Source: Brevibacterium permense
Lineage (GTDB): Bacteria; Actinomycetota; Actinomycetes; Actinomycetales; Brevibacteriaceae
Direction: 5' to 3'
Length of the DNA stretch: 64,000 nt
Assembly: GCF_025506275.1 (NCBI RefSeq)
Contig: NZ_QYCP01000085.1
Coordinates: 1-64,000, forward strand
A model generated the notes under the pieces. The model was not told the origin of the DNA. It did no database searches and saw only the letters and a program-made list of their open reading frames with translations. A program made the position numbers and the translations under genes. Below are positions 4,077 to 47,911 of the stretch, in pieces. How positions within the stretch are numbered: the first letter of the stretch is position 1; each line of letters opens with the position of its first letter.

Positions 4077-6275
4077 TCAGCGACGACGGCGACGTGAGAC
4101 GACCACCAAAGCACCACCGAGAGCGATTATCGCGGCAGCGATGCCGATGCTTGTGGCAACCTCGAGGCCTGTCCGCGGCAGATTGGCTCCGCCGCCGGCG
4201 CCGGCAGCCGAGTCATCTGCTTCGGCACCATCAGAGTTGCCGTCCATTGCGCCACCGTCGGAGGCGCCGTTCGTCGAATCATCGTCCTCGGCTGGTGCTC
4301 CTCCGACGTTGTCCTCTCCATCAGAGCTTCCGGAACTCCCGGAACCCGCGCAGTCGGAGGCCCCACCGGAATCGGACTCGCCACCGGCAGACGCATTCGC
4401 GCCTGCCTCGGCAGTGGCTTCGCCGGAGCTGTCGGAATCCTCGGCGCCATTGGAACCATCATCGTCTCCGCCTGGTGCACGGCTGCTGGTCACGACTTGC
4501 CAGTTCTCGTCGAAGAAGTCGGCGGGGTCGACGATCTGCTTCTCCTCTGCCCAGTCGATGAGTGCCTGACGCACCTCGACCTGTTCGTTGTAGACCTCTT
4601 TGAGCCCGTCGACGGGATAGCCGCCTCCACCGGACTGGCGATAGTTGTTGATGGCGAGAATGAACCGGTCATCGTCTCCGATTTCGCTGCCGTCAGACTG
4701 CGTGAGGTTCTCGATCCTCTCCCCGGTCGGTTTGGAGACATTGATGTCGTAGTCGATTCCGGCCAGAGCATCGTAGTTGTAGTCCGGGATCGGAGATTCT
4801 GAGACTTCGTCGATCGCGTTCGTGCCGTCGACCGGGTCGAACTCGGCGCCGTCCTCGGTCTGTTTGAAATAGCGTGCCGAGAATTCGAGGTAGTCGCGCA
4901 GTTGAGCACCGTTGATCTCGACACCGGCAAGAGTGTTGTCGTAGACGTAGAGTCCAGCCACATCGCGGATCGTGATGTCGCCGGCCGGGAACTCTGCGGT
5001 GCGGCTGAAGGGTGATGCCTGCGAGATCACGGGAAGTTCGGCATAGTCCGTTCCCTTCAGCCCTTCTTCAACCGTCTCGGTCTGGACGTGGGAGATGAAG
5101 TCGAGAATTGCCGAGTCTTCATAGTAGGAGGTCTTCGCCGATAGTGTTTCGGTGACCGATCCGATCTTCGTGTTCACGTAGTCGATCGTGGCCTGGTGCT
5201 GCTCATCGACGAGGTCTTTGACCTCCTGGTCCTCAGCGACCTCCCCTTGTGTGGCAAGAGCGTCTGCGTGCGGCGCGGTCTCGCCCCAGTCCACGTGGTG
5301 GGTGTCAAGGTTGATCGGCAGTCCCACCTCAGATACCGACCGTGCCCAATAGTTCGGTTGGGTGATGAGCACCTGGGTGCCGTCGTCACGGGTCACGACC
5401 TGACTGGGTTCGTTCTGATGAGTATGGCCGGCGACGAGGACATCAACTCCGGGCACTTTCGCTACCGAGGTGCTGACGTTCTCCTGCAGCTGGTCCGGAT
5501 CCCAGCTCTGTCCCTTAGGATCCTTGCCAGAGTGAGACAGTACGACGATGACGTCTGCGCCCTGCTGTTTCATCTCGGGCACGTACTTCTGTGCCGTCTC
5601 GACTGGATCGTCGAAGTGCACCTTCCCGGACAGGTTGTTCTTGTCCCAGATGCGGCTGCCGGGAGTGGTCACGCCGAGAACACCGACGGTGATCGTCTCA
5701 CCATCGACCTGCTTGTCGACCATCGCATACGGGTCCAAATGGGTCTGTCCGTCGGCATCGTCGACGACATTGGCTCCGAGCAGAGGAAAGTCGACCTGGT
5801 CGCGATAGGTGGCCAGCAGATCGAGGCCATAGTTGAATTCGTGGTTGCCGACGACCTGTGCGTCGTATCCCAGGTGGTTAAAGGTCTTGGCCAGAGGGTG
5901 AGTTTGGCCACTCGTCGTGATCGGCTCCTGTTTAGCGAAGTAGTAGGCCAATGGATTGCCTTGGATCGTGTCACCGTTGTCGACGAGTAGCACGGAATCG
6001 GCACCTTTGTCCTCGCGCACACCCTTGATGAGAGTCGAGGCCCGGGATATACCCAGCTCCTCCCCGGCCGGGTAGGGCTTGTTCGCGAAGTAGTCCCAGT
6101 TGAGCACGTTGCCGTGAACGTCGGTAGTCGCCAACAGAGTCAGTTCTCCGGTCGTCGCCGCCTGAGAGTCGGCAGGGGCATCGGCACCGCCGAGGCCGGT
6201 CGCGGAGGCGGCCGCGGGGGCGGTGACGATGAGAGCGAGGGCCAGTGTGGACGAGGTCAGGGGGCGCAGACGCAT
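4077..6275 (-). CDS. Cell-wall-anchored 5'-nucleotidase/2',3'-cyclic phosphodiesterase
   Basis: A 732-residue surface metallophosphoesterase. A signal peptide covers about 1-25. The N-terminal calcineurin-like domain carries the metal motifs TDVHGN (51-56), VDNGDTIQGN, GNHEFNYG, LSHSGKD and GHTHQNEP. The C-terminal 5'-nucleotidase substrate domain follows. A Gly/Asp/Ser-rich wall-spanning stretch leads to LPRTG (699-703), a hydrophobic helix and an RRRRR tail, a sortase signal. It probably releases nucleoside and phosphate from extracellular nucleotides. GGAG precedes the ATG. No sortase gene is in the window. Confidence 0.93.
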   Translation of the reverse strand: MRLRPLTSSTLALALIVTAPAAASATGLGGADAPADSQAATTGELTLLATTDVHGNVLNWDYFANKPYPAGEELGISRASTLIKGVREDKGADSVLLVDNGDTIQGNPLAYYFAKQEPITTSGQTHPLAKTFNHLGYDAQVVGNHEFNYGLDLLATYRDQVDFPLLGANVVDDADGQTHLDPYAMVDKQVDGETITVGVLGVTTPGSRIWDKNNLSGKVHFDDPVETAQKYVPEMKQQGADVIVVLSHSGKDPKGQSWDPDQLQENVSTSVAKVPGVDVLVAGHTHQNEPSQVVTRDDGTQVLITQPNYWARSVSEVGLPINLDTHHVDWGETAPHADALATQGEVAEDQEVKDLVDEQHQATIDYVNTKIGSVTETLSAKTSYYEDSAILDFISHVQTETVEEGLKGTDYAELPVISQASPFSRTAEFPAGDITIRDVAGLYVYDNTLAGVEINGAQLRDYLEFSARYFKQTEDGAEFDPVDGTNAIDEVSESPIPDYNYDALAGIDYDINVSKPTGERIENLTQSDGSEIGDDDRFILAINNYRQSGGGGYPVDGLKEVYNEQVEVRQALIDWAEEKQIVDPADFFDENWQVVTSSRAPGGDDDGSNGAEDSDSSGEATAEAGANASAGGESDSGGASDCAGSGSSGSSDGEDNVGGAPAEDDDSTNGASDGGAMDGNSDGAEADDSAAGAGGGANLPRTGLEVATSIGIAAAIIALGGALVVVSRRRRR

Positions 6276-6390: not shown

Positions 6391-7398
6391 TCACACTGTG
6401 GTGGAATCGGCTCCATCAGCCTCATCCTTCGCGGACGCAAATTTCGCCTCGACGATGATGAGGATGACGACGACGGCCGCGCCGAGGACCGCAAGTAAAA
6501 TCGGACCGAGTACCGGATCGACGGGGGCCAGCAGGCCGCCCGCTCCGTGTTGTTCGCCGTCGGCGCCCACCTCCGCAGGTGACTGCCACGGCCAGAGCGC
6601 GCGGAGGGAACCGAACATCAGACCTGCCATGACGATGAGGGTCCACCACCGGTGATTGTGCAGGAAGTATTTGAGGATGTTGACGAAGACCGCCAGGCCG
6701 AGGATCGCGCCGAGCATGAATATTCCGAGGTACCCGAAATCGCGCGAGTCGACGGCCCGCAGCGTGGTCGAGTACATGCCCACTGCCAGCAGGAAGAACG
6801 ATCCGGACACTCCTGGAACGACGAGTGCGCAGATGGCGATCGAGGCGACGAAGAAGACGGCGATGAGCGGTGGATTCTCCACGTCTGCCCCACCTGCCAG
6901 ACTCGTCATCCAGAATGCAAGAACAGCGGCGACGATGAACGCCAGAACGCCGAGGAGCACCGGCTGCCGTAAGGAACGGGCCGGCAACATCCTCAACGGC
7001 ACCGCTATGCTGGCGGCGACAAGACCGAAGAACAGACCCCGGGAGAGTTCGGGGTTGCTGGTGACGAAGCCTTCCATGACACCGGCGATGGTGAACACTG
7101 CCGCGCCCATGCCCAACAGAACAGGGATGACGAGGAACCAGTCGGTGCGCCGCAGTTCCGCCAGTGCCCCCGCGGCACGGTTCGGTCCCGTCACGAGGGT
7201 CTTCGCGGCCGAAACGACGTGAGATGCGGAGTCGATGAGCTGGTCGTACACTCCGGTGACCAAGGCGATGGTTCCGCCGGAGACCCCGGGCACGAGTTCG
7301 GCGCTGCCGATGAGGAAGCCCCGGATCAGGTCGAGCGGGAGGAGCGCTTTGGATCTCTTCGGCGCAGTGTCGGTATCGGTCGGCGGGGAGTTCGTCAT
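6391..7398 (-). CDS. DUF368 membrane protein, PopT-type polyprenyl-phosphate translocase
   Basis: A 335-residue integral membrane protein with about 8-9 hydrophobic segments. The family signature occurs twice as an internal duplication: IGSAELVPGVSGGTIAL near residues 32-48 and the second PGVSGSFFLL near 195. DUF368 proteins (PopT) were identified as transporters that recycle undecaprenyl phosphate across the membrane for wall synthesis. TAGGCT at 7406-7411 lies 7 nt before the ATG and the spacer is SD-like (GGAAGGT), so leaderless or SD-driven translation are both possible. It lies upstream of the 5'-nucleotidase gene on the same strand. Confidence 0.88.
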   Translation of the reverse strand: MTNSPPTDTDTAPKRSKALLPLDLIRGFLIGSAELVPGVSGGTIALVTGVYDQLIDSASHVVSAAKTLVTGPNRAAGALAELRRTDWFLVIPVLLGMGAAVFTIAGVMEGFVTSNPELSRGLFFGLVAASIAVPLRMLPARSLRQPVLLGVLAFIVAAVLAFWMTSLAGGADVENPPLIAVFFVASIAICALVVPGVSGSFFLLAVGMYSTTLRAVDSRDFGYLGIFMLGAILGLAVFVNILKYFLHNHRWWTLIVMAGLMFGSLRALWPWQSPAEVGADGEQHGAGGLLAPVDPVLGPILLAVLGAAVVVILIIVEAKFASAKDEADGADSTTV

Positions 7399-7442
7399 AC
7401 CTTCCAGCCTATTTGATCCACCGCGTGAAGATGAGTCGCGAC

Positions 7443-7961
7443 TCAGTCGCCGATCTCACCGTCGATGTCTTCGCGCAGGATGTCCGCATGACCTGCGTGC
7501 CGTGCGTACTCTTCGATGAGATGGATGAGGATCCATCGGACGTTGAACTTCTCTCCGTCACGATCTCCTCGTGCGGTGAGTGTGTCGAGGTCGACCACCT
7601 CGGCGAGGATTTCACGGGACTTCTGACAGGCCTGCTCGTGGTCATCCAGGAGCTCGTCCGCGGTCATCCCTGACGCCGACTCGAAATCCCAATCGCGGTC
7701 GCTGTTCCAGTCGACGCTCGACCACGGCTCCCCCAGTTCTCTGCCCTGCAGGACTTCGGCGAACCAGCTCTCCTCGACGAGTGTGAGATGGCGGAGGATG
7801 CCGCCGATCGTCAGAGACGATGAGGCCACGGTGTGGTTGAGCTGCTCGGGCGTCAGCCCGTCGACCTTGCGTCTGACCACCTGCCGGAAGTAGTCGACGA
7901 ATTCTTCGAGCCCGCGACGTTCGTTCGGGGCGTTGCTCGGATCGGTCAATGGCAGGTTCAT
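7443..7961 (-). CDS. DinB/DUF664 family protein
   Basis: A 172-residue DUF664 member of the DinB-like four-helix superfamily. Family marks are the helix LTIGGILRHLTLVEESWF and the C-terminal IEEYARHAGHADILRE, which supply the histidines that usually bind a metal. Relatives are mycothiol- or bacillithiol-dependent transferases and isomerases, but the substrate here is unknown. It lies downstream of the VOC gene on the same strand. Two further DinB-like genes occur in the window (39915-40496, 53531-54025). Confidence 0.85.
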   Translation of the reverse strand: MNLPLTDPSNAPNERRGLEEFVDYFRQVVRRKVDGLTPEQLNHTVASSSLTIGGILRHLTLVEESWFAEVLQGRELGEPWSSVDWNSDRDWDFESASGMTADELLDDHEQACQKSREILAEVVDLDTLTARGDRDGEKFNVRWILIHLIEEYARHAGHADILREDIDGEIGD

Positions 7962-8016
7962 GCTGAGCCTCTCTGATCATGCAGACGGCCTGATGTTCGA
8001 ACCAGGCGGGTGAGGC

Positions 8017-8388
8017 TCAGTCTAGTTTTCGCCGACCGACGTCGAAGAGATTTCCTTCGGGATCTTTCAGAGTCGTCCATTCGATCCCATATTCATCGAA
8101 AGACGCGAGCTTATGTGCGCCCAAGGAGACTGCGCGGTCGACGTCCGCCGGATAGTGCGGATCGTCGAGGTCGATGTGCAGCGGGTTCTTCCCCTCTGCG
8201 CGTTCGTCGACTTTGAGGAAGAGCATTCCCGGGGTCGGTGACTCGCTGTTGTGGACTCCCCCGATGCTCGCAACGAACTCGTTGGCGCCGGGATCGATGT
8301 CGGCACCGAGGAGATCCGCCCAAAAGATCGATTGGGCTTCCACATCGAGGCAGTCGAAAGTGATGCTCAAAGATGCCAGCGACGCCAT
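8017..8388 (-). CDS. VOC family (glyoxalase-like) protein
   Basis: A 123-residue protein of the vicinal oxygen chelate fold with paired beta-alpha-beta-beta-beta modules: ITFDCLDVEAQSIFWADLLG at the N-terminus and WTTLKDPEGNLFDVG at the C-terminus. The start was set at the ATG at 8386-8388 because AAAGGA lies 9 nt upstream; the longer open frame to 8454 has no such support. Reaction unknown. VOC and DinB genes are also adjacent at 39.4-40.5 kb, a repeated pairing in this window. Confidence 0.85.
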   Translation of the reverse strand: MASLASLSITFDCLDVEAQSIFWADLLGADIDPGANEFVASIGGVHNSESPTPGMLFLKVDERAEGKNPLHIDLDDPHYPADVDRAVSLGAHKLASFDEYGIEWTTLKDPEGNLFDVGRRKLD

Positions 8389-33315: not shown

Positions 33316-33322
33316 TAGAGTA
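33316..33322. promoter_or_regulatory. Overlapping divergent -10 elements of thiE and thiO
   Basis: TAGAGT (33316-33321) reads as a -10 for the + strand riboswitch transcript; TACTCT (33317-33322) reads as a -10 for thiE on the - strand. They share five base pairs, so RNA polymerase can occupy only one direction at a time. Confidence 0.55.
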
Positions 33323-33325
33323 GAG

Positions 33326-33411
33326 GAGTTCGCGGGAGCCTCCCAACGAGGCTGAGAGGGCGTAGGAGCCGACCGCCAAACCTGATGCGGATCATGCCGC
33401 CGGAGGGAGAA
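33326..33411 (+). ncRNA. TPP riboswitch (THI element)
   Basis: The conserved parts are in order: P3 stem AGCCTC/GAGGCT (33337-33342 and 33348-33353), the pyrimidine-binding CTGAGA (33352-33357), ACCTGAT (33380-33386), the P4 stem GCGG/CCGC around ATCATG (33387-33400) and the terminal GGAGGGA. That last element is also the ribosome binding site of thiO, whose GTG is at 33415, so bound TPP should block translation. Confidence 0.95.
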
Positions 33412-33414
33412 GCT

Positions 33415-34568
33415 GTGAGAGTCATTGTCGTCGGCGCCGGGATCATCGGCCTTTCCACGGCCTGGTACATGCGCCGCCTCGGTGCTGAGGTCACCATCAT
33501 CGATCCTGCCCCGGCTCAAGGAGCGAGCCATGCCGCCGCAGGGATGCTCGCTCCCGCCGCCGAGGTGGTCTGGGGGCAGACTCCCCTGTATCCGCTGATG
33601 CGGACCTCGGCGCAGATGTATCCGGAGTTCGCGGCCGAGGTAGCGTGCGCCGCCGAGGCGGAACTGGGCTTCTCTGATGTCGGAACCCTGGTGTGTGCCG
33701 GCGACCGAGCCGATCTGCAGGCCCTGCGGGAGCTGCGCGAAGCACAATCGCAGTCCGGCTTCGACACCGAGCTCATCACCGGCAGCGCCGCCCGCGCGGT
33801 CGAGCCGTCGCTGTCGCCTGCCGTGGCCGGGGCCGTGCACATCTCCGGCGATCACTCGATCGACCCTCGTCGGCTCACTGCCGCATTGCTGACTGTCCTG
33901 TCCTCTGACTCAGCAGGCTTCGTTCGCCAGCGGGCGGCCGGCCTGATAAAGGACGGCGATACGACTGTGGGAGTCGCACTGGGCGATGGCCGCCGGTTGG
34001 AGGCCGATCAGGTGATCATCTGCGCCGGCAGCGCTGTGTCCGCAATCTTCGGTGCCCCGCAGCTTCCTCTGCGTGAGGTCTGGGGTGATGTTCTGCGACT
34101 GCGCACCCCCGCGAAGGCGACTCCGCTGCTGAGCCGTACCATCCGCGGGCTGGTCAACGGTCGCTCCGTCTACTTGGTCCCCCGCCCCGAAGGCGAGATC
34201 GTGCTCGGTGCCAGTTCGCGTGAGGACGGACTCTCCGGCACTCCGGCCGGGGCGATTCACCGGCTGCTCGCCGACGGGCAGCGACTCGTCCCGGGCATCC
34301 TCGACGCGGAGATCACCGATATCACCACCCGTGCCCGGCCCGGCTCGCCCGACGACCTGCCGATGATCGGCCGCATCGATCCCGGCTGCATCGTGAGCAC
34401 CGGGTATTTCCGCCACGGCATCCTCTTGGCGCCGTTCGGCGGCAAGCTCGGCGCCGAGCTCGCCCTGGGTGTCGCCTCCGACTGGCCTCCTGACGGGTCG
34501 CTCGAGTCCGTGTCCCCACACCGCTTCACCACAGACCACACCAGTGCCTACCCGATGAGGAGCATCTC

Positions 34569-34572
<4 letters not shown>
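33415..34572 (+). CDS. thiO: Glycine oxidase ThiO
   Basis: A 385-residue FAD-dependent amine oxidase that makes dehydroglycine for thiazole synthesis in aerobes. It begins VIVVGAGIIGLSTAW (FAD site); HAAAGMLAPAAEV and the C-terminal GYFRHGILLAP are ThiO hallmarks. The start is the GTG at 33415 behind the riboswitch SD; the in-frame ATG at 33385 is part of the riboswitch. The stop overlaps thiS by 4 nt. Confidence 0.93.
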
Positions 34573-42124: not shown

Positions 42125-43540
42125 TCATGACCGGGCTCGGCCGTCGATAAGCCGCAGTCTGCGGTGCGCGAACTCGTTCGCCCAGCGCTGGTCGTGTGTG
42201 GTCGCCAGGACAGCACCTCCACGGTTGAGGAACGACTCGATGATCGCGTTCAGCCGGGTCATCGCTGCGAGATCCCGCCCGATCGTCGGTTCGTCGAGCA
42301 GCAGCACCGTCGCCTCGGTCATCAGCGCCGAGGCGATGACGATGTCTTTGCGTCGCGGCAAGTCGAGGTCGAAGGGATGGTCGTCGGCGACCTCGGTCAG
42401 GTGCGCTTCGGCGAGGACGGTGTCGACGTCGGCCCGGCGCTGGTCGCGGACTTTAGCTCGGTCTCGCCGTCGATGCGGCGGCAGCGGCGCGGCGTGGAGC
42501 AGTTCGCGTGCCACTGTGGCGGCGGAGAGCTGCAGTCCCGGATCCTGTCCCACCCATCCGAGGTGAGCACTGCGCGAGTGGGCGGGCAGGGTGTCCAATC
42601 GGATCATCTCGCCGAGGCGGCTGACCGTGATCGTGCCCGTCACGGACGCCGTCCGGTCGAGCAGGCCGAGGAGGGCCCGCAGTAGCGTGGACTTGCCGGC
42701 CCCGTTGGCACCGGTGACTGAGGTGAGTTCGCCGGGCCGCAGATCGAAGTCGAGGTCGTCGAGGATTCGGCTGCTCCCCCGATCCACGGTGAGGTCGCGA
42801 ACGGTGAGCAGCGGATCTGCCTGTGGCTTCGGCATCGTCGAGAGGGTCGCATCATCGTTCGGGCGGCTGTCCCAGATCCCGACGGCTCGACCCCTGGGAG
42901 TCGCCGTCTGCAGCCGACCGGCGTCGAGGAAGCGGACCTCTTCGCAGATCCGGGTCAGTTCGTCAGTCTGATGACCGGTGATCAGCACAGCCCCTCCCCG
43001 ATCACAGAATTCCTGCAGCACTGTTGCCAGGCGCACACGCATCTGCGGATCCAAGGACTGTGCTGGTTGGTCGAGAACGAGCAGGTCGGGCCCGGGTGCG
43101 AGGATCCGTGCCACCGCGACCAGTTGCCTCTGCCCTCCGGAGAGTGAGTCCAACCGTCGGTTCCATAGGTCTCCGATGCCGAGGACCTCGAGTAGGTTCC
43201 GGGCTCGGCGGAGGGCATCGGCCGGATCATGCCCGTGCAGTCGGCAGGCCAGTTGTGTCTCGTCACCGACGTGGCTGGTCATTCCGCTCAGTTGCGCTTC
43301 CGGGTCTTCGCCGAGCAGCGCCACGGTTCCATTCCGGTCGATGGTGCCGGTCAGGGCTCCGCGGGAGACGAGCTGTCCGGCCAACAGGCGGCAGAGAGTC
43401 GACGTTCCCGATCTTAGCGGTCCGAGCACTGCGGTCATGGTGCCGCTGACAACGTCGAGAGTGATTCCGCTCAGCGCGGCAGTGTCCTCTCCACGATAGG
43501 TGAACCACGCGTCCGTGATCGCAACGGTCATCTCAGGCAC
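42125..43540 (-). CDS. ECF transporter ATPase with two fused ABC domains, one degenerate
   Basis: A 471-residue fusion of two EcfA-type ABC ATPases. Domain 1 has an altered Walker A (GPLRSGTST, 40-48, Thr46 in place of Lys) and Walker B (LVLDQP, Gln158 in place of the catalytic Glu) but an intact signature LSGGQRQ (133-139). Domain 2 has intact Walker A (277-285) and Walker B (LLLDEP, D416/E417) but a lost signature (DLPRRKD, about 393-399). Only one composite ATP site can be canonical. GTG at 43540 or ATG at 43531 may be the start. It is the last gene of the operon. Confidence 0.93.
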   Translation of the reverse strand: MPEMTVAITDAWFTYRGEDTAALSGITLDVVSGTMTAVLGPLRSGTSTLCRLLAGQLVSRGALTGTIDRNGTVALLGEDPEAQLSGMTSHVGDETQLACRLHGHDPADALRRARNLLEVLGIGDLWNRRLDSLSGGQRQLVAVARILAPGPDLLVLDQPAQSLDPQMRVRLATVLQEFCDRGGAVLITGHQTDELTRICEEVRFLDAGRLQTATPRGRAVGIWDSRPNDDATLSTMPKPQADPLLTVRDLTVDRGSSRILDDLDFDLRPGELTSVTGANGAGKSTLLRALLGLLDRTASVTGTITVSRLGEMIRLDTLPAHSRSAHLGWVGQDPGLQLSAATVARELLHAAPLPPHRRRDRAKVRDQRRADVDTVLAEAHLTEVADDHPFDLDLPRRKDIVIASALMTEATVLLLDEPTIGRDLAAMTRLNAIIESFLNRGGAVLATTHDQRWANEFAHRRLRLIDGRARS

Positions 43541-44372
43541 CGCCGATCAGCTGCGCGGCGCCCGGCAGCGGGAGGACTCCCGTCACCGAGGCGACGATGA
43601 GTCCGATGGTCACGAGCGGAGTAAGGATCCGCAGGAGGCTCTGCCCTGTCTCGTCCGTGTGATCCTGGAGCGCAGTCGCGGTCGCGTTCGAATTGAGTCC
43701 GCTGGATTCGAGTACGTCGTGACGTTGGTCGACGGTCAGCAGGATCGCGGTGACGAGTCCTGTAACGATTCCCGGCAGCAGTCGGATGCGCACCCGCCAG
43801 GAGTCGGTGGCCCAGCCGCGGGCCTGTCTGGCTTCGATGATATGTCGGGTGCGTGCGCCGATCATTGGGATGAGACCGATGGCAGAGGCGCACATATAGG
43901 CGACTGCCGAGGGCAGCCGAAGTCGACGCAGACCGTCGAAGAGGCGGGCGGAGTCGGCACCCGGACCGAACAGCGCGCACAGCCCGATCAAGGCGCTCAC
44001 CCGCAGCCAGATCTGGACGGCGATGCTCAGTCCTTCGACGCTGAGGCGAGCGGGTCCGACCTGCCAGAGCACATGCACATCGGTTCCGGGGTAGAACAGC
44101 CCCTGCACGACGATGAGCACAACCAGAGTCGGTAGGCACAGGAGACCTACTGTCATCACCCATGCCCGCAGTCGCACGACGTGTGAGAGTGTCACGGTCA
44201 CGACCGTGCCGGTCAGGATGATGACCGGCACGATCGGCGAGGGGATTCCGAAGACGAGCAGCAGGCTGCAGGCCAGGATGATCAATTCTGTGGCAGGGTG
44301 CAGACGACGCTTCGGGCGGTGAGACTCAGCCGCGTCAACAGCGGTGTGCGTGTCGGAAGAGGCGGGACTCAT
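43533..44372 (-). CDS. ECF transporter T component (CbiQ/EcfT family)
   Basis: A 279-residue membrane scaffold with about five to six helices. The cytoplasmic coupling motifs are ARQARGW and the preceding Arg-rich helix (ARTRHIIEARQARGW), which contact the ATPase. It starts in a 4-nt overlap with the S gene and ends 8 nt inside the ATPase frame. It links substrate binding in the S component to ATP hydrolysis. Confidence 0.9.
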   Translation of the reverse strand: MSPASSDTHTAVDAAESHRPKRRLHPATELIILACSLLLVFGIPSPIVPVIILTGTVVTVTLSHVVRLRAWVMTVGLLCLPTLVVLIVVQGLFYPGTDVHVLWQVGPARLSVEGLSIAVQIWLRVSALIGLCALFGPGADSARLFDGLRRLRLPSAVAYMCASAIGLIPMIGARTRHIIEARQARGWATDSWRVRIRLLPGIVTGLVTAILLTVDQRHDVLESSGLNSNATATALQDHTDETGQSLLRILTPLVTIGLIVASVTGVLPLPGAAQLIGGA

Positions 44373-45247
44373 TCCGCCGGCTGTGCCGATTCGGCCTGAT
44401 TGTTTAGATCAGGGCCGTCGGTCTTCTTCGTCCGGGGCCGGCTATGGGCGGCGAACTCGTAGCGACCGATGATGCGTTTGGGCAGCGACTGGATCACGAC
44501 ATAGGCGAGGACGAAGATGAGCGCCTTGTCGACGATGTCGGAGACCATGCTCTGAGCGAAGGTGGCGTTGAACATCTCGAGTCCTACCGCTTGGAGGATC
44601 GCGACGACTCCCCCGGTGCCGGCCCCCAGCCCGCCGCCGAAGACATAGGCGGCGACGGGTGCTCCGATGGCGCCGGCGGGAACACCGGCGACGGCGCCGA
44701 CGATGATCGCGGTCCAGGGTGTGCGGAAGACTCCGAGCCTTGCTGCCCAGCCGGCGGCGGCGCCGATGAAGGCGGCACCGGAGCTGAAGGCGATGACGCT
44801 GGGGCTCAGGGTCACGCCCCAGATGAGGTTCGAGATGATTCCCGTGAAGGCACCTGCTGCGGGGCCCGCCAGGACGCCGATGAGCACGGTTCCGATGGAG
44901 TCGAGGTAGAGGGGCACGGGTGTGTAGTTGCCGATGATCTGCCCGATGACGACGTTGAAGGCGATGGCGACCGGGATGAGCGCGAGAACGCTGCGAGGAA
45001 TGAGCGGGAGAGTGCCTGCGGCGAGCAGAATGCCTCCGCCGAGATAGCCGAGCATGACCCACAGAGTGGTGTATCCGAGGTCGAGGCCGAGGTTGGCAGG
45101 CTGGGTGAGGAGTACGGCGACGTAGGTGCCGATGACGATGAGGGCGCCGAGCAGTGTGAGGACGAGGGGAAGAGTGCTGTTGCGGTTTTGTCCGGGACCG
45201 ACCGTAGTGGTCGGCCCCTGCCCAGACTGTCTGGAGTGTGCGGTCAT
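44369..45247 (-). CDS. ECF transporter S component, substrate possibly nucleoside or base
   Basis: A 292-residue membrane protein with about six to eight helices and the S-component pattern IPVAIAFNVVIGQIIGNYTPVPLYLDSIGT and GAFTGIISNLIWG. Its start overlaps the nucleoside hydrolase stop (ATGA). The specificity is not readable from sequence; cotranscription with the hydrolase suggests a nucleoside or nucleobase. The longer frame to 45670 is a shadow of the upstream gene. Confidence 0.88.
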   Translation of the reverse strand: MTAHSRQSGQGPTTTVGPGQNRNSTLPLVLTLLGALIVIGTYVAVLLTQPANLGLDLGYTTLWVMLGYLGGGILLAAGTLPLIPRSVLALIPVAIAFNVVIGQIIGNYTPVPLYLDSIGTVLIGVLAGPAAGAFTGIISNLIWGVTLSPSVIAFSSGAAFIGAAAGWAARLGVFRTPWTAIIVGAVAGVPAGAIGAPVAAYVFGGGLGAGTGGVVAILQAVGLEMFNATFAQSMVSDIVDKALIFVLAYVVIQSLPKRIIGRYEFAAHSRPRTKKTDGPDLNNQAESAQPAE

Positions 45248-46404
45248 GCGGGTGGTCCTTTCATCAGGATAGTGCTGAGGTGGTCGAGGAAGGCAGGAGC
45301 GTCGATGGCGCGGATGATCTCTGCATTCACGGGCCGGCCCCACCGCCCCAGCCAATCGGCGACGGTTTCGCCTCGTGTGAGTGTACCCGTGAGTTCGACA
45401 TCGACAGGTGCCCACAGCGTCGACGCCCATGGCAGGTCCCCCGCAATTCCCCTCACGGGTACCGGGGCGGACGCCTCCCGGGCGTCGGAGTCCGATCCGT
45501 CGGGCTCGGTTCCGGTCGACGCAGTGGTGTGCTGTCGCGCCCAGGACAGGGCACAGGCGAGAACGAACGGGTCGTGGATGTGGGCAAGGTAGCCGAGTCC
45601 ATCGGATTCGTGGAATTCGAAGTAGAAACGGAGCGCCTCGGCCAGTTGTGCGAGGACAGATCGCCAGCACTCATCGGCACGATTGGCAGAGGCTCCGTCG
45701 AGGATGTCGGCGAGACGCTCGGGTGTCATCTCAACGGCTTCGGTCGCTTCGATCGGGGCGATGACCGGGAGGTGGGCCAGTCTCTCCTCCTGATTGGTGC
45801 GGTCGAAAGCGGCGAGCACCTGGGCGGTGGACTCGGGGTCGAAGGTGACGTTCCATTCCGTCGTCGGGTGGGTGTTACCCCGGTAGTTGAACGCTCCACC
45901 CATGATGAAGAGACGATTGAACAGACTCGGCAGATCCGGGTCGATCTCGAGAGCCAGGGCAAGATTCGTGGCTGGACCGATGACGACACCGAGGAGCTGT
46001 CCGGGATGGGCGTGGGCAGCATCGACCCAGGCCTGAGCAGCTGTTACCGAGCTCACCGGCCCGCTCGGGGTCGGCAGCCGCGCATATCCCCGCCCGGTCT
46101 CGCCATGGGTGAGGTCGGCATATTCCATGGCTTCGCCCGTTCCCGTCTCCGATGACTGCGGATCCATCTGCAGGGCCTGCCGTGCCAGCGGAAGACTGTG
46201 GCCGGCGTGGACGGGAATGTCGCTGCGCCCGGCCAGCGACAGCCATCCGCGGGTGTTCTCGACGACTTGTGCGGCGGCGACATTGCCTCCGGATGCGGCG
46301 ATGCCGACAACGTCGACGTCGTCTTGGCAACACAGGTAGGCCAGTGCAATAGCATCGTCGATTCCGGGGTCGCAGTCGAGGAAGAGCGGCAGAGTGGCAG
46401 GCAT
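45244..46404 (-). CDS. Inosine-uridine-preferring nucleoside hydrolase
   Basis: A 386-residue nucleoside hydrolase that splits N-ribosidic bonds to base and ribose. The calcium-binding signature DCDPGIDDA is at 10-18, NVAAAQVVENT and MGGAFNYRGN follow, and the C-terminal HIHDPFVLA supplies the catalytic histidine and Asp. It is about 70 residues longer than the typical 310, mostly a Ser/Thr/Asp-rich insert before the end. CAGAAT lies 6 nt upstream of the ATG. It heads the ECF operon. Confidence 0.92.
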   Translation of the reverse strand: MPATLPLFLDCDPGIDDAIALAYLCCQDDVDVVGIAASGGNVAAAQVVENTRGWLSLAGRSDIPVHAGHSLPLARQALQMDPQSSETGTGEAMEYADLTHGETGRGYARLPTPSGPVSSVTAAQAWVDAAHAHPGQLLGVVIGPATNLALALEIDPDLPSLFNRLFIMGGAFNYRGNTHPTTEWNVTFDPESTAQVLAAFDRTNQEERLAHLPVIAPIEATEAVEMTPERLADILDGASANRADECWRSVLAQLAEALRFYFEFHESDGLGYLAHIHDPFVLACALSWARQHTTASTGTEPDGSDSDAREASAPVPVRGIAGDLPWASTLWAPVDVELTGTLTRGETVADWLGRWGRPVNAEIIRAIDAPAFLDHLSTILMKGPPA

Positions 46405-46431: not shown

Positions 46432-46890
46432 TCACCACCGTCGGATGCGGGCCCAGTTTCCGCAGGCTTGAGTGGATCCCCGTCTCACAAGTCGACAGCA
46501 GAGGTAGAGCTTCGTCGAGGGAGGTTCGTCGATTCCGAACCTTTCTCTCATGTCGATGGCTTCCTCACTGCCGAAGGGAGTGCCGATGAGCTCGCCGAAC
46601 GGCATGCTGGTGATCCACGGTTTGGCGGCGAAGGTGAAGGCGTTGAGGAACATTTCACAGTCACAGCAGCAGGCACCCATGCTGCTCAGCCGCGCGAGCA
46701 GTGCCGTGGCGCGTGGAGCCGTACGGTCGCGGAAGCCTTCCGCGAACCTGTGGGTGCCGTTGCAGCCGTATTCGCCGAGTTGTCGGAACACGTAGCAGGC
46801 CAGGCATTCGCCGGGGCGCGGGGCGAAGACACGGGCGGTCTCCTCGTCGATGATCGTTCTGACGTCGTTGTCAATGGTGTTCTTGTCCAT
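46432..46890 (-). CDS. DUF2695 protein, cysteine-rich
   Basis: A 152-residue protein with a DUF2695-like core: YGCNGTHRFAEGF and MGACCCDCEMFLNAF. It has at least nine cysteines (CLACY, CCCDC, LCCRL, ACG), so zinc or cluster binding is likely. The ATG at 46888-46890 was preferred over the GTG two codons earlier. It lies 27 nt upstream of the nucleoside hydrolase on the same strand and may be the first gene of that operon. Function unknown. Confidence 0.78.
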   Translation of the reverse strand: MDKNTIDNDVRTIIDEETARVFAPRPGECLACYVFRQLGEYGCNGTHRFAEGFRDRTAPRATALLARLSSMGACCCDCEMFLNAFTFAAKPWITSMPFGELIGTPFGSEEAIDMRERFGIDEPPSTKLYLCCRLVRRGSTQACGNWARIRRW

Positions 46891-47008
46891 GGCCACACGG
46901 TTCCAGACGGCACTGACACGAAAAGCGGTCGATTGACTGAATTCCCCGATTTCCGTCCTATTTTCTCAGGTCGCGCCGGTGGAAGTCTTTCACCTTAGAA
47001 TCGTGCCC

Positions 47009-47911
47009 ATGAGTATTCTCGTCATCGGTGAGGCCCTCATCGACATCGTCAGCACGCCGGGGAGTCCGGACCGCTACGCACCGGGTGGAGCTCCAGCCAA
47101 TGTCGCTCTCGGGCTGGGCCGCCTCGGCGACGACGTCGAGTTCCTCACCGATGTCGGCGATGATTTCCACGGCGGGTTCCTTCTCGCTCATCTTCAGGAG
47201 TCTCAGGTCGCCGTGCTCGCTTCACCACGTGGCGCCACGTCGACAGCGCTGGCTCGCCTCGCCGATGATGGCTCGGCCGAGTACGAGTTCCACTTGCGGT
47301 GGGATCCTGACTCTTCCCTGCTCAAGGAGGCGTCTCACTCTGTAGTTCATGTCGGTTCGATTGCGGCATTTCTCTCACCGGGCGCCGCCGTCATCGATGA
47401 TGTTCTCGCCTCTGTGACAGGCGTTTCCGACACGCATCTTCGTCCGCTCATCTCCTTCGATCCGAATATCCGACCGTCGATCATCGGCGCCCGCGAGGAT
47501 GCGCTGCCACGGTTCGAGGAGTTGGCGAGTCGAGTCGATGTTCTCAAACTCAGCGATATCGATGCGGACTGGCTCTATCCCGATCTCGACGAGTCCGCAC
47601 AGGTCAACCGTCTTCTCAGCCTCGGGGCCAATCTGGTCGCCATGACTCGCGGTGGTGAGGGTGCGATCGTGGCGACCGCCTCGGCGCGGGCATCGGTGAC
47701 CTCGAAGAAGGTGGAAGTCAAAGACACGATCGGGGCCGGGGATACGTTCATGGTCTCGCTCATCCACGACCTGAATGCACAGGAGAACGCTGTGTCCGGT
47801 CTCAGCACGGCAGAACTCACAGCCCTGGGAGATCGTGCATCGGCGCTTGCGGCGATCACGGTCAGCCGTGAGGGTGCGGATCTGCCGTGGGCCGCGGATC
47901 TCACGAACTGA
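47009..47911 (+). CDS. PfkB family sugar kinase (fructokinase-like)
   Basis: A 300-residue ribokinase-fold kinase. GEALIDIV at the start, PGGAPANVALGLGRLG (substrate lid) and the C-terminal DTIGAGDTFM (catalytic aspartate and anion hole) are PfkB signatures; the N-terminal pattern is closest to fructokinases. It phosphorylates a sugar with ATP. TAGAAT at 46996-47001 lies 7 nt before the ATG, a leaderless start. It overlaps the convergent AHSA1 gene by 11 nt. Confidence 0.93.
   Translation: MSILVIGEALIDIVSTPGSPDRYAPGGAPANVALGLGRLGDDVEFLTDVGDDFHGGFLLAHLQESQVAVLASPRGATSTALARLADDGSAEYEFHLRWDPDSSLLKEASHSVVHVGSIAAFLSPGAAVIDDVLASVTGVSDTHLRPLISFDPNIRPSIIGAREDALPRFEELASRVDVLKLSDIDADWLYPDLDESAQVNRLLSLGANLVAMTRGGEGAIVATASARASVTSKKVEVKDTIGAGDTFMVSLIHDLNAQENAVSGLSTAELTALGDRASALAAITVSREGADLPWAADLTN

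Follow-up and report, generated by a model that had tools for sequence, protein, structure and literature searches.

Uptake of queuosine (Q), queuine, and preQ1 by ECF importers has been described in Clostridioides difficile, where a Q hydrolase is encoded in the same operon (PMC11477304). There, the queK-qrtT-queL operon, associated with a PreQ1-I riboswitch, combines a nucleoside hydrolase with an ECF S component (PMC11477304), as does an operon in the window, i.e., the whole 64,000-nt stretch of DNA that was analyzed. This precedent weakens the statement in the preliminary description of the locus that its substrate class is not among the well-known ones of ECF systems. Q importers have been reported missing from Actinomycetota (PMC11130926), and the operon represents a concrete, testable candidate for one.

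The operon, on the minus strand, comprises genes for a nucleoside hydrolase (NH; 45244-46404), which matches PF01156 (IU_nuc_hydro) at 247.9 bits and belongs to the IU-NH fold; an S component (44369-45247), whose ATG start codon lies within an ATGA overlap; a T component (43533-44372), which scores 66.2 bits against PF02361 (CbiQ) with a gathering score of 25; and a fused ATPase A-A′ (42125-43540), which starts with GTG and matches PF00005 (ABC_tran) in two stretches. The S gene is, in other words, accompanied in one operon by a T gene of CbiQ/EcfT type and by two domains belonging to the ABC ATPases. The head-to-tail arrangement with overlaps of 4, 4, and 8 nt, given in the preliminary description, was reproduced in all its coordinates. 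A DUF2695 gene (46432-46896, minus strand; PF10905, 47.2 bits), situated 27 nt upstream of the NH gene and retained at the Brevibacterium loci compared, is possibly the first gene of the operon. Divergent from the operon is a gene for a PfkB sugar kinase (46979-47911, plus strand), which is kept beside it in Brevibacterium and whose nearest model, fructokinase, is matched below the cut-off. An Rfam scan of the operon gave no match, and a riboswitch for Q precursors was not found. A keyword search of open PMC papers found nothing on this NH-ECF operon or its ATPase. Elsewhere in the window, a TPP riboswitch (33322-33425, plus strand; 61.8 bits) directly precedes genes for a thiO-like glycine oxidase (33385-34572) and a ThiF/MoeZ-like protein, which together constitute an ordinary thiamine operon.

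When the genome collection was scanned using five S sequences, 80 related loci were obtained, in all of which the NH gene adjoins the S gene on the same strand. The pairing is therefore not a product of chance. Most of the 40 loci from the order sample hold NH, S, T, and A together. The NH and S trees, constructed only with loci of known TGT status and an S score of at least 110 (98 of the 155 S-hit loci, the rest being dropped), agree with each other, the window group being composed of Brevibacterium, Sediminivirga, Nesterenkonia, Leucobacter, Pseudoclavibacter, and Helcobacillus, and the Rothia and Arthrobacter types lying further out. Some loci show peculiarities: in L138 and L147, the NH and S genes are separated by an opposite-strand gene that, read by eye, encodes a flavoprotein oxidoreductase, and the S gene of one close relative, a Brevibacterium (G128, locus L069, approximately 7040-8342), is split across two frames and seems broken or mis-sequenced. 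In addition, distant S genes accompanied by other NH types occur in TGT-negative Microbacteriaceae (L189-L204 and L215-L217), which suggests several separate NH-ECF pairings.

The S protein, as modeled, has the S-component fold, and its sequence falls under none of the Pfam models that represent known Q transporters. Its AlphaFold model (pLDDT 87.5) was aligned by VIA-align with solved S or CbiM-type components at Z scores of 9.5-14.5 in the top 22 rows, and unrelated rows, with Z of 7.2 or less, were separated from them by a clear gap; Foldseek alone gave no match to the model at E ≤ 0.001, the S-component result having come from VIA-align. The model contains two extra N-terminal membrane helices (residues 25-48 and 59-82) ahead of the S core (residues 84-264). 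The sequence, which is 96% identical to that of the B. sediminis S protein, has no Pfam match at E ≤ 0.01, and its score against PF12822, the family of QrtT and QueT, is 12.0 bits, below the gathering score of 30.7. The only S family that it matches in NCBIfam is NF045596 (CD3073 family putative ECF S component), and this match extends across the whole S core, but at 108.8 bits it is under the cut-off of 180, which leaves the protein outside the CD3073 family by the equivalog cut-off. Judged by profile scores, S falls within no family of known vitamin specificity; placement inside such a clade was the outcome that, in the preliminary description, would have refuted the nucleoside importer, and the proposal withstands this check. 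A Pfam-based survey could miss the operon because the S protein has no Pfam family above the cut-off.

The AF2 model of NH (pLDDT 89.2) resembles a plant nucleoside hydrolase, ZmNRh3, with a Z score of 41.2. The catalytic motif DxDxGIDD is invariant, with D10, D12, D16, and D17 kept in the 31 aligned rows, and the combination of an IU-NH family domain (PF01156) and the intact motif is what would be expected of a QueK-type hydrolase, the function proposed for this protein. QueK and QueL are said to have been introduced by Yuan et al. in PNAS in 2019. The fold and the catalytic motif are common to the window NH and the hydrolases RihA, RihC, and UriH, whereas the window NH remains below every equivalog cut-off (137.7, 119.1, and 112.9 bits against 433, 382, and 450, respectively), and does so for all four NCBIfam NH models that it matched; in the NH tree, its family forms a long branch of its own, separate from the three hydrolases. 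Bifidobacterial NH-ECF clusters were also considered as orthologues and were dropped, as their NH proteins group with RihC or other branches.

The two halves of the fused ATPase are not equivalent. NBD1 has a degenerate Walker A motif (GPLRSGTST), a degenerate Walker B motif (LLVLDQP), and an intact LSGGQ signature, and NBD2 has intact Walker A and B motifs and a degenerate signature. In all 46 close loci, the Walker A lysine of NBD1 is replaced (by T in 40, A in 4, and I in 2) and the signature of NBD2 is degenerate, with the motifs of the other composite site intact; in NBD1, Q takes the place of the Walker B glutamate at 44 of these loci. The lysine is mostly retained in the Arthrobacter-type relatives. 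The presence of one consensus and one degenerate ATP site, which is common to 46/46 close relatives, suggests, by analogy with asymmetric ABC exporters, that one site probably hydrolyzes ATP and the other merely binds it.

The host genome encodes one TGT, no QueA, and one QPTR adjoining tgt, and the presence of TGT together with the absence of QueA is the pattern of a Q-salvaging organism; QueA was found in none of the 47 carriers examined. Such a genome would use Q but lack the known route for completing its synthesis from preQ1, and therefore queuine or Q would be needed from outside. QPTR (YhhQ, COG1738), a single-protein transporter for Q-precursor import that is unrelated to the ECF importer, lies outside the operon in the host, and the window contains neither tgt nor QPTR. 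In five of the 80 loci, by contrast, it is inside the NH-ECF cluster, those of Nesterenkonia bin114, N. sedimenti, N. massiliensis, N. cremea, and Sediminivirga luteola (loci L098 and L039 represent the same genome), either between NH and S (three) or after A (two), with the NH-QPTR junction in L107 formed by an ATGA overlap. All five pass the NCBIfam cut-off of TIGR00697 “queuosine precursor transporter,” and each is, by coordinates, the sole QPTR of its genome; no QPTR was detected in four other Nesterenkonia carriers checked (G305, G307, G310, and G332). This in-operon QPTR is the strongest link to Q. Moreover, 10 of the 26 order-sample carriers examined have TGT and lack QPTR, and therefore need another importer. 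In none of the 80 clusters was tgt found. The pocket of TGT reads GGALEK(E), which is neither the preQ1-type GGLAVG nor the published queuine-type GG[LS][AS]G (PMC11570991). Qng1 (PF10343) gave no match in 64 genomes, which does not establish its absence because the control genomes were not matched either.

In the order sample, TGT is present in 28/28 genomes with the window NH family (bifidobacterial clusters left out; 35/35 with them) and in 92/269 others. In the Microbacteriaceae, only 24 of 299 genomes possess TGT, and yet all five with the window-type S do so (Fisher p = 2e-6, uncorrected for kinship; 3e-5 without G298, the centre of the sample); four of these five carriers were already known from a scan based on S rather than on TGT. 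The window clade of the S tree (support 100/99) consists of 66 rows, in which at least five genomes occur twice, and is entirely TGT-positive. Its sister grade comprises 14 rows that share the NH family, and 10 of these (from Microcella, PHSC20C1, and others) come from genomes without TGT. Besides the five window-type carriers, seven Microbacteriaceae possess this NH family together with a sister S type but lack TGT, as do 3 of the 40 carriers in the genome collection, one of them also among these seven. For the wider family, the link to Q therefore does not hold, or does not hold exclusively. A Pfam search of the genes flanking the sister-grade loci revealed no common pathway gene, with EamA, biotin ligase, PH domain, amylase, and others being found. 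In addition, half of the sampled Brevibacterium genomes have no S gene, and 10 of these 12 have TGT. The co-occurrence is also confounded by kinship, because TGT is near universal in some of the sampled families.

On these grounds, we consider it probable, from the sequence evidence, that the operon encodes a dedicated Q-salvage system. Outside the cell, S would bind Q itself or a closely related compound (for instance, queuine riboside arising from the turnover of tRNA), which T and the fused ATPase A-A′ would then bring in. NH would then cut the ribose-base bond to release queuine, which the chromosomal TGT could place into position 34 of tRNA; we infer the substrate, the hydrolase reaction, and the direct use of queuine by the host TGT. 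A wall-anchored protein encoded approximately 36 kb from the operon (4077-6275, minus strand) might liberate nucleosides from extracellular RNA. It has a wall-anchor match, and its best models are 2′,3′-cyclic-nucleotide phosphodiesterase/3′-nucleotidase; in the preliminary description, it was labeled a 5′-nucleotidase. Several observations count against Q: the TGT-negative rows of the sister grade, where Q would be useless; the location of tgt outside all clusters and the presence of TGT in 10 of the 12 Brevibacterium genomes without S; and the TGT pocket of neither published type, together with the failure to find a Q-precursor riboswitch.

The occurrence of the same NH family in TGT-negative genomes favors another reading, in which the importer is a general one that takes up ordinary nucleosides, purine or pyrimidine, for a hydrolase acting in salvage; the association with TGT would then be driven by lineage, and the in-operon QPTR would be another base transporter. 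The nearest characterized sequences of NH, those of the pyrimidine-specific RihA, are also compatible with this, but NH is under the cut-offs of all the NCBIfam models that it matched. The adjoining PfkB sugar kinase likewise counts in its favor, but it is a neighbor in Brevibacterium only and is closer to fructokinase models. The general importer is, moreover, at odds with the QPTR beside tgt in the host and inside the operon in five genomes, and with a TGT link that holds within the Microbacteriaceae, where TGT is rare. High-affinity ECF systems usually serve trace vitamins and not bulk nutrients, which also speaks against it, and we regard it as rather doubtful. Import of another scarce nucleoside-like vitamin, e.g., nicotinamide riboside, from which the hydrolase would free the base, could account for the TGT-negative carriers and would agree with the service of ECF systems to vitamins. 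No NAD-salvage genes were seen inside the operons, however, and the in-operon QPTR and the TGT link would be left unexplained, making such a function highly improbable. A nucleoside importer with a hydrolase is likely, and the conserved linkage upholds the preliminary proposal of an ECF importer with an intracellular nucleoside hydrolase; bulk nucleosides as its substrate are disfavored by the genome context, which points to Q. As a tentative extension of Q salvage, the operon may represent a new S family for the queuosine nucleoside with its own fused ATPase having one working site, and hence one of the missing Actinomycetota Q importers, and the TGT-negative sister grade may take up a different modified nucleoside with the same design.

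The resemblance to the C. difficile system (PMC11477304) has limits. The C. difficile S component is QrtT, a member of PF12822, whose gathering score the window S does not reach (12.0 vs 30.7 bits), and the ECF core genes are located outside the three-gene operon, whereas both T and A are inside the operon in the window. The C. difficile operon also has the lyase QueL and a riboswitch, while no lyase gene was seen and no riboswitch was found in the window operon. The pairing of an ECF importer with a hydrolase for Q is already known, and what is new here is the different S family and the dedicated asymmetric ATPase, which, if the assignment is true, would be added to the ECF importers.
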